From positions 1 through 64,000 of the forward strand of contig VMSR01000072.1 in the NCBI GenBank assembly GCA_013792075.1: a stretch of DNA of 64,000 nucleotides, written 5' to 3'. Positions within the stretch are counted from its first letter, which is position 1; the number at the start of each line of letters is the position of its first letter. Source of the stretch: Desulfobacula sp. (GTDB taxonomy: Bacteria > Desulfobacterota > Desulfobacteria > Desulfobacterales > Desulfobacteraceae). The notes beneath the pieces were generated by a model. That model was not told where the DNA came from and did not search any database. It worked only from the letters and a program-made list of their open reading frames with translations. A program made the position numbers and the translations under genes. Positions 7,481 to 19,175 of this stretch are shown in pieces.

Positions 7481-7784
7481 CAATATTTCCTTTTTCACTC
7501 TGTTTGCCGGTAAAAAACAAATACCCGGTCTTTCACTGCCTGGCCAATTCGTCCGGCCGTTCCAATGATCCCAAATTCACAGGTCCGGTCTTTCGCAAAT
7601 AGAGTCGGGCTGGCTCAAGTCCGAATACATCGCACTTTTAAACAACTACTCGACTTCCTGTTTTTATTGTTTTTTAGAGTTTCATCCGAATTATGCCTCA
7701 GTTTAAGAAAATATACCAATTTATTCAAGAACAATTATCTTTAAACGATTCCGGAAGACATAGGCACTCCCTTTGTGTCTTTCA

Positions 7785-8060
7785 GGGCAATCGCATCTAT
7801 ATTTTTAATAACCAGCCTTATACCCGCTCCGGTCGGTGTGCCTTTCTGTCGCTGGATAGGCCAGGGGTGGGTAAGGGGGTGGAATGGCGTAGCTGGACGT
7901 GGTGTCAGGACGACAAAGGCCGCGGCCAGGTCCGCTTCTTTGGTCCTCAAGGACGAGGACCAAAGATTTAATGGAATCCCCCTTGCCCGGCCCTGGACGG
8001 GTTGCAGGGATCATGGACAACTATACCTCTATAAATTACATGCGTTGGCCCTGTTGTGTC
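7785..8060 (+). repeat. Structured repeat, copy A (with 125-nt extra segment)
   Basis: This copy matches 18960-19094 along most of its length. Its ends form imperfect inverted repeats (left from 7785, GGGCAATCGCATCTA; right near 8036-8053). An internal hairpin has arms at 7822-7834 and 7859-7872 with one bulged A and a 24-nt loop at 7835-7858 identical in both copies. Compared with copy B it carries about 125 extra bases (7873-7997), themselves bounded by 19-nt inverted arms (7861-7879 and 7978-7996, 16 of 19 identical) and containing a perfect 11-bp hairpin (7938-7948 with 7955-7965). It could be a structured RNA, a cis-regulator or a MITE-like element; I do not recognise a named family. Confidence 0.75.
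7938..7965 (+). other. Perfect 11-bp hairpin inside repeat copy A
   Basis: CTTTGGTCCTC at 7938-7948 pairs without mismatch with GAGGACCAAAG at 7955-7965 around a 6-nt loop. No T tract follows, so it is not a canonical intrinsic terminator. It sits in the segment that copy B lacks. Confidence 0.7.
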
Positions 8061-8105
8061 TTTTTGGTTGCTCTTTGATTCCGGTGCTGGTAAATCGTAA
8101 GCTCC

Positions 8106-9368
8106 ATGAAAATATTTCTTGGCATATCCTCCTTTCAAATGCTGGCCATGTTCAGGCGAGGCCTTTTTTACAGCTATCTGACCATCTACCTGCGGCATTT
8201 TCTGGGGCTTTCCGTGACCACCACCACCTTGTTTGTAACCCTTCCCATGATTGTCAATGTGGTAAGCCAGCGCTATCTGTGGGGGGTTATTTCAGACAAG
8301 TACCAGAAACGCAGGTCCCTGATCGTCTGGGGAGAAATCCTGGCAGGCCTGGGCACCCTCCTGCTCTGGGCTTGCCACTTGATCCCTTCCGAAAAAGCCA
8401 ACGCCGGATGGGTGATCATCATCGGGCTTTCCCTAATTGAAGTTTTCTGGTCCATGTCCAATATCGGGTGGAGCGCCCTGATCTCTGATATTTACGAACA
8501 AGGAAACCGAACAAAAATAATGGGGAAACTAGAAAGCCTGGGGGGAGTGGGCAGGGTCATGGGCGTGCTTGCTGGAGGGCTTTTGTATGACCGGATGGGG
8601 ACGGCCTTTCCGGGATGGGGGTTTTACCAGGGCATCCTTTTCTGGATATCCGGAGCTGTCATGTTTGCATCCGTTATCCCCATGTTGATGGTGCCAGAAG
8701 GCGGCATGGGCAAACCGCTGGCCAAAGACTCCCAAGAAACGGTAGGGGACCCTTTTGTTCCCCGCACCTTTTTCATCTTCATCACGGCCATGACCCTGAT
8801 CCATTTTGGCAGGAACGCCGTGGCCGTTACCATGCCCCAATACCTTTCCCTGGCCACGGGCCTTAACCTGTCCGCCCTTACCTTAAGCCATGTGGTCAAT
8901 ATCCGATCCCTGGGCATTATCATCACAGGACTATTGGCCGGCAGGCTGTGTCAACGCTTCGGAGAACGTCGCCTTTTGGCCCTCTCCTCTGTTGCCGCAG
9001 CCCTGGCCCTGTTTATCCTGGGGATATTTCCATCCCTTTACTGGGTCTGCATCAGCTCCTTTTTAATGGGATTTTCCGACGTCCTTATCATTGCCGCCTC
9101 CTATGGGCTGGCGGCTTTTTATATCCCTGCCCCCAAAAGGGGCACATTATTTGCTGTGTTTAACGCCACCTTTTTTCTAAGCTGGGGCATGGCCGGCACC
9201 CTCATCTCAGGGCCCATCACCGACGGTCTCATCTATCTGGGACGATTGGAAACCGATGCCTATCGGACATCCTTTAATGTCTCGGCCTTGATCACACTGG
9301 TCGGAGTGGCGGTTCTGCTTGCCCTGTTTTATGATGAACGCAGATTAACCCGGATGAAGAGGCCTTAA
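8106..9368 (+). CDS. MFS transporter
   Basis: 420 aa with about 12 hydrophobic helices and the overall pattern of the major facilitator superfamily, including the loop between helices 2 and 3 (WGVISDKYQKRRSL) and its counterpart in the second half (LLAGRLCQRFGERRLL). It is an inner-membrane secondary transporter of unknown substrate. It is alone on the plus strand, about 45 bases after the structured repeat copy A, which could act in its leader. Its last 4 bp overlap tail-to-tail with the next gene. The ribosome binding site is weak. Confidence 0.8.
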   Translation: MKIFLGISSFQMLAMFRRGLFYSYLTIYLRHFLGLSVTTTTLFVTLPMIVNVVSQRYLWGVISDKYQKRRSLIVWGEILAGLGTLLLWACHLIPSEKANAGWVIIIGLSLIEVFWSMSNIGWSALISDIYEQGNRTKIMGKLESLGGVGRVMGVLAGGLLYDRMGTAFPGWGFYQGILFWISGAVMFASVIPMLMVPEGGMGKPLAKDSQETVGDPFVPRTFFIFITAMTLIHFGRNAVAVTMPQYLSLATGLNLSALTLSHVVNIRSLGIIITGLLAGRLCQRFGERRLLALSSVAAALALFILGIFPSLYWVCISSFLMGFSDVLIIAASYGLAAFYIPAPKRGTLFAVFNATFFLSWGMAGTLISGPITDGLIYLGRLETDAYRTSFNVSALITLVGVAVLLALFYDERRLTRMKRP

Positions 9369-18863: not shown

Positions 18864-19175
18864 TTTACACGCCCTCGGTTGCCAAAAATTTTATGCTTTT
18901 AAAAAATGTTTTATAACAATATCCCATCTTCTTGGCAAGACCATGGATATGATATATCCGGGCAATCGCATCTAGCTTTTTAATAACCGCCCTTATACCC
19001 GTTCCGGTCGGTGTGCCTTTCTGTCGCTGGATAGACCAGGGCCGGGTTGCAGGTATACAATACCTCTATAAATTACATGCATTGGCCCCGTGTCTCCCAT
19101 AGAAATAGCTTGATAATATCTAAAATATTGTTATTTTAAGAAGTTGTCTGCAAATCAAATAAAATAAGGTGAATT
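18864..19175. other. Divergent intergenic region with structured repeat copy B
   Basis: This 312-bp gap separates tmk (minus) from the FAD-dehydrogenase gene (plus). Apart from repeat copy B it holds only AT-rich sequence likely to contain the two divergent promoters. No coding region is convincing. Confidence 0.55.
18960..19094 (+). repeat. Structured repeat, copy B (compact form)
   Basis: The 135-bp compact copy of the repeat also found at 7785-8060, in the same orientation. The two ends pair as imperfect inverted repeats (from 18960 and back from about 19089). A hairpin with arms at 18997-19009 and 19034-19047 keeps the bulged A and the 24-nt loop (19010-19033) seen in copy A; differences between copies in the arms mostly preserve pairing (G-U versus G-C, U-G versus U-A). 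A second small hairpin, AGGTAT/ATACCT, lies at about 19051-19065. As with copy A it lies between divergent genes and upstream of a plus-strand gene. Confidence 0.75.

Follow-up and report, generated by a model that had tools for sequence, protein, structure and literature searches.

The 64,000-nucleotide stretch of a Desulfobacula sp. contig analyzed here (hereafter the window) contains two similar intergenic repeats, copies A and B, and the question is what kind of element they are and what sets their position beside genes. An earlier note, made from the letters of the sequence, described a two-copy repeat with a conserved hairpin that would fit either a structured RNA family or a MITE-like palindromic element. 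In its description of the two repeats it was accurate: they match at 82 of 91 positions on the left (E = 1e-30) and at 47 of 60 on the right (E = 2e-9), have the same orientation and imperfect inverted termini, and each lies between divergent genes, upstream of a plus-strand gene.

The copies are real, and we corrected their boundaries from 7785-8060 and 18960-19094 to 7783-8053 and 18958-19090 (plus strand, as are all coordinates below unless stated). BLASTN against full-length elements (on contigs C70 and C173) and the target duplication define copy A as a 271-bp deletion derivative. It is flanked by identical 10-bp duplications, TTGTGTCTTT, at 7773-7782 and 8054-8063. Its distal (left) terminal inverted repeat, CAGGGCAATCGCATCTA at 7783-7799, is of the ATCGC type and matches the type found at the transposase-5′ end of ISAs1 elements; its promoter-facing (right) repeat at 8036-8053 is of the AACGC type. 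The ORFs predicted over copy A (window positions 7693-7971 and 7775-8440) are likely artefacts that could confuse gene prediction. Copy B, also a deletion derivative, is 133 bp long and degenerate in its last bases (CC.../...CG); its terminal repeats are at 18958-18974 (distal) and 19073-19090 (promoter-facing). Comparison of the flanks of 18958-19090 revealed no target duplication.

The repeat is not confined to two copies. A search with the compact copy B matched 45 places in the genome of the window, and a full-length query matched 56. We distinguished 30 right and 26 left junctions, with both ends present in 14 copies, which gives a family size of 30 to 42 copies, i.e., at least 30. Several copies stop at contig breaks, as expected for a repeat in a draft assembly of 308 contigs. 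Full-length copies are 530-534 bp long, begin with CAGGGCAATCGCAT and end with ATGCGTTGGCCCTG. Among the 14 complete copies, eight have 10-bp target duplications whose two sides agree in nine or all ten bases; none of 182 mismatched flank pairs, used as a control, reached eight or more identical bases. Read directly, the 530-bp full-length copies contain no gene. With terminal inverted repeats that match those of an autonomous insertion sequence (IS), target-site duplications and no internal transposase gene, the full-length element is a non-autonomous transposon (MITE) of ~530 bp, of which copies A and B are internal-deletion derivatives. The MITE-like alternative of the earlier note was thus correct, given the terminal repeats, the 10-bp duplications and a parent IS family.

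Some copies have unusual surroundings. A 1.5-kb copy (L035, G000:C54:12900-14700) contains a second left end (CAGGGCAATCGCATGTAGAAATTG...) and is a nested or composite insertion. The left flank of the copy on contig C108 is itself a dispersed repeat, found at G000:C108:9300-9538, C107:5847-6068 and C268:30250-30373, on C16, C96 and C288, and also in genome G358. A scan of named genomes for the left core of the element identified only one metagenome-assembled genome, Desulfobacteraceae isolate BB40, whose element sequence is that of genome G356.

Judging from its ends, 10-bp target duplications and subterminal modules (M1 and M2), the MITE derives from ISAs1-family insertion sequences. Genome G257, from the same bacterial family, has 24 copies of an ISAs1 transposase (416 bits for NF033564 transpos_ISAs1, where the cut-off is 70; PF13808 and PF01609 present). 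Complete IS copies in this genome are 1458 bp long, carry both MITE end types and, in most cases, are flanked by exact 10-bp duplications; MITE module M2 is present upstream of the transposase gene. In the congener G355, the left end of the MITE and module M1 run directly into a decayed ISAs1 gene. In both of these relatives, matching ends enclose an ISAs1 transposase, and the two MITE end types also match ISAs1 elements in other genomes. Nine unrelated ISAs1 copies on plasmids were examined, five of which have CAGGG-type ends and exact 10-bp duplications (with a CAAGG variant at one end of one of the five). PF13808 profile and protein searches detected no ISAs1 transposase in the 308 contigs of the window's own assembly, from which a collapsed repeat could be missing. 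The element thus resembles the ISAs1 family in its CAGGG ends, 10-bp duplications and the transposase of its autonomous relatives, and resembles other bacterial MITEs in that it encodes nothing, is bounded by inverted ends typical of an IS family, is present in many copies and undergoes internal deletion. It differs from bacterial MITEs in having a promoter-anchored insertion point and two long, covarying internal stem-loops.

The insertion point was assessed relative to predicted promoters, scored with a sigma70 matrix modeled on E. coli frequencies. The spacing of 18-19 bp had been spotted on visual inspection, in the MITE and then in the ISs, and was scored only afterwards, so that the p-values given here, which come from the same data, are descriptive. 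At 20 of the 30 right junctions of the MITE a promoter scoring >5 starts 18 or 19 bp from the element, against 3.5% expected from the other positions of the same flanks (p = 1.4e-22), and the best score of the flank falls at offset 19 in 15 cases and at offset 18 in three. These promoters read away from the element, and most right flanks of sufficient length have their first long ORF on the same strand, starting within ~160 bp. When the sites are aligned, TTGACA and a TA...T -10 box stand out, separated by 17 bp in 27 of 36; the ten duplicated bases show no base preference. Left flanks have a weak excess (5/26 at 18/19 bp, p = 0.001), and the orientation of the MITE relative to promoters is accordingly strong, not absolute.

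Within the window, the -35 box of the predicted promoter of the gene downstream of copy B (TTGATA - 16 bp - TATTTT, 19110-19137, score 9.8) lies exactly 19 bp from the end of the element. The divergent dTMP kinase gene has a predicted promoter (TTGCCA - 17 bp - TATAAA, 18910-18938, minus strand, score 10.6) whose -35 box is 19 bp from the left end. Copy B therefore sits between two divergent predicted promoters at the same exact distance from its two ends, yet has no target duplication. Ten of the 30 right junctions of the MITE lack a good promoter at 18/19 bp. Copy A is one of them: its best candidate, a weak prediction for the MFS-type transporter gene downstream (8075-8103, -35 TTGATT, score 7.2), is 21 bp from the element and off the canonical spacing.

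The same spacing and polarity were found in autonomous relatives. In a complete IS, the AACGC-type end is the one after the transposase gene. This end follows the rule at 11 of 16 junctions in G257 (p = 2e-11), against 0 of 20 at the other end, and further ISAs1 elements from other genomes gave 10 of 13 at the 3′ end and 0 of 12 at the 5′ end. In total, none of the 32 junctions opposite to the promoter-facing end in autonomous ISs follows the rule. The promoter-facing end reads AACGC in the MITE and in most other ISs, and ACGC in G257. An element of genome G309, represented by three copies (L172-L174), has AACGC at both ends, and the 3′ preference is still seen in two of them.

Some other ISAs1 elements do not share this behavior. 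One lineage, in genome G312, has a promoter at the expected distance at one of seven junctions at each end, and by eye the rule was not seen in the more distant G714 copies; it is therefore not general to ISAs1. The seven G312 copies (L163-L169) have the same two end types and offer a natural comparison for locating the determinant. Among 395 genomes of the phylum, only two more hosts were detected at E 1e-60, with flanks that show no clear promoter rule by eye, and by the same inspection none of the nine plasmid copies clearly follows it. The papers that we searched report no promoter-spaced, oriented insertion for ISAs1, and the distant members of the family inspected here do not clearly show it. 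A large survey found ISAs1 over-represented between convergent genes (PMC9208149).

These exceptions would suit an ordinary ISAs1-derived MITE without target selection, in which the association with promoters reflects survival, insertions into genes and promoters having been lost. Selection does drive transposons into intergenic DNA, and the G312 and G714 elements show that members of the family can lack the rule. Nevertheless, survival explains neither a peak that is precise to one base, at offset 19 in half of the best scores, nor the dependence on one particular end in the ISs of G257 and other genomes, and we regard it as improbable.

The age of the promoters can be judged at two sites. 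At the site of copy B, four congeners keep the same promoter (TTGATA or TTGACA...) without the element. At the C108 site, congeners (L213, L218, L219 and L220) have TTGAATTAT...TATACT, again without the element. At both sites the promoter therefore predates the insertion. This bears on the idea that the family activates promoters, through UP-element-like DNA or outward transcription, and was retained where it raised expression of neighboring genes. The constant location of the element just ahead of the -35 box would favor such a role, but the promoter boxes are outside the element and pre-existing, and the 18-19 bp that adjoin the -35 box are host DNA. We hold it to be about as doubtful as survival.

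The internal structure of the element differs from that described in the earlier note. The hairpin with a 24-nt loop (7822-7872 in copy A) is compatible with the sequences of copies A and B and of a few further deletion derivatives (L067 and L075), but most copies cannot form it: after the loop they carry GGCCAGGTGACAGG in place of GGCCAGGGGTGGGT. The hairpin joins a half-arm of module M1 to a half-arm of module M2, i.e., it combines parts of two different stem-loops as a by-product of internal deletions, and we rejected it as a feature of the family. Arm differences between copies A and B, which had been read as preserving pairing, are no evidence for it, since most copies cannot fold this way. 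Copy B alone does not fold better than shuffled sequences (z = 0.54 and -0.35).

Full-length copies, in contrast, are predicted to hold two larger stem-loops, M1 (z = -5.8) and M2 (z = -7.8). In copy A, the long M2 stem-loop (CCAGGGGTGGGTAAGGGGG / CCCCCTTGCCCGGCCCTGG, with an inner hairpin from 7939) spans 7861-7996, as judged from folding of the full-length version and a compensating stem in G257. The predicted M1 and M2 stem-loops covary across genera. Relatives of M1 in other genera keep the unpaired AAAACTCGCTNCGCTCAAACA and vary in their stems; changes on both sides affected 67 cells, compared with 30.6 in shuffles, a comparison inflated by sequence relatedness, and 71.9% of cells are paired, against at most 47% when slid, with the structure taken from one of the compared sequences. 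The inner stem of M2 is CTTTGGTCCTC/GAGGACCAAAG in the genome of the window and CTTAAGCGGTC/GACCGCTTAAG in G257, a fully compensating change, and AGGACGA is kept in the loop. An integron attC reading of M1, considered for its stem-and-loop layout, was dropped, the 5′ core box being absent by eye. In both autonomous relatives the stem-loops lie between the distal end and the start of the transposase, so they may plausibly shield the element, or its transposase gene, against transcription entering from outside. Free-standing palindromes of ~190 nt with the invariant loop of M1 occur at no fewer than seven places in G356 (L202-L208), a genome of the same genus as the window, and also in genus g4, with further loci at L177, L181, L182, L184 and L197; these are either an independent repeat family or M1 as a separate mobile module.

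The earlier suggestion of a structured RNA family was partly right in that conserved structure exists, albeit not in the named hairpin. As a full account, a structured RNA or cis-regulatory element, such as a leader or riboswitch-like sequence maintained ahead of genes to regulate them, is very improbable and already contradicted. In its favor are the two strongly folding stem-loops with compensatory change and the position upstream of genes. Against it stand the target duplications at the flanks, absence at orthologous sites in congeners, a location upstream of the promoter and hence outside the transcript of the gene, and no match in the Rfam covariance-model search, which the earlier note had proposed, at both thresholds.

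We conclude that copies A and B very probably belong to an ISAs1-type MITE family that inserts preferentially 18-19 bp upstream of pre-existing sigma70 promoters, in a preferred orientation. In the proposed mechanism, the transposase would make staggered cuts that yield the 10-bp duplication and would orient the element so that its AACGC-type end faces a pre-existing promoter and stops 18-19 bp short of the -35 box. The ten duplicated bases would then fall in the UP-element zone, and the promoter would stay intact. Because only the -35 and -10 signals stand out and the ten duplicated bases lack a preference, the transposase may recognize promoter DNA or promoter-bound RNA polymerase. Placement upstream of promoters would spare host genes.

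TnGBS, ISLre2 and some ISKra4 elements (p-MULT) are known to insert with a defined orientation 15-17 bp upstream of sigmaA promoters; their transposases are all Mutator-like, and asymmetric inverted repeats were suggested to underlie the preference (PMC3942029). This 2014 description presented anchoring to promoters as unusual and as belonging to two lineages of Mutator-like transposases (PMC3942029). The MITE resembles these elements in its preferred orientation and its fixed spacing from the -35 box downstream of it, but the distance is 18-19 bp rather than 15-17 bp, and the transposase is of the ISAs1 type (PF13808/PF01609) rather than Mutator-like. A search of the window's assembly for the UPF0236/ISLre2 transposase (PF06782) gave no match, and its controls gave no positive either. 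We rejected an ISLre2 transposase as the driver, as none was found in this search with blank controls and the relatives with these ends carry ISAs1.

Within the literature searched, so precise a promoter landing rule was previously known only for transposons unrelated to ISAs1. We consider it likely that an ISAs1 transposase lineage independently evolved recognition of sigma70 promoters, or of RNA polymerase bound to them, with insertion in one preferred orientation 18-19 bp upstream of the -35 box, that its non-autonomous derivative followed this rule in colonizing at least 20 promoters of a single genome, and that this represents convergence with TnGBS/ISLre2. If true, the finding that two unrelated transposase families have the same polarity and almost equal spacing would point to a common handle, for example RNA polymerase at the promoter, which the close ISAs1 relatives with the rule (G257) and without it (G312) make testable. 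The insertions would also serve as natural promoter markers in uncultured sulfate reducers.
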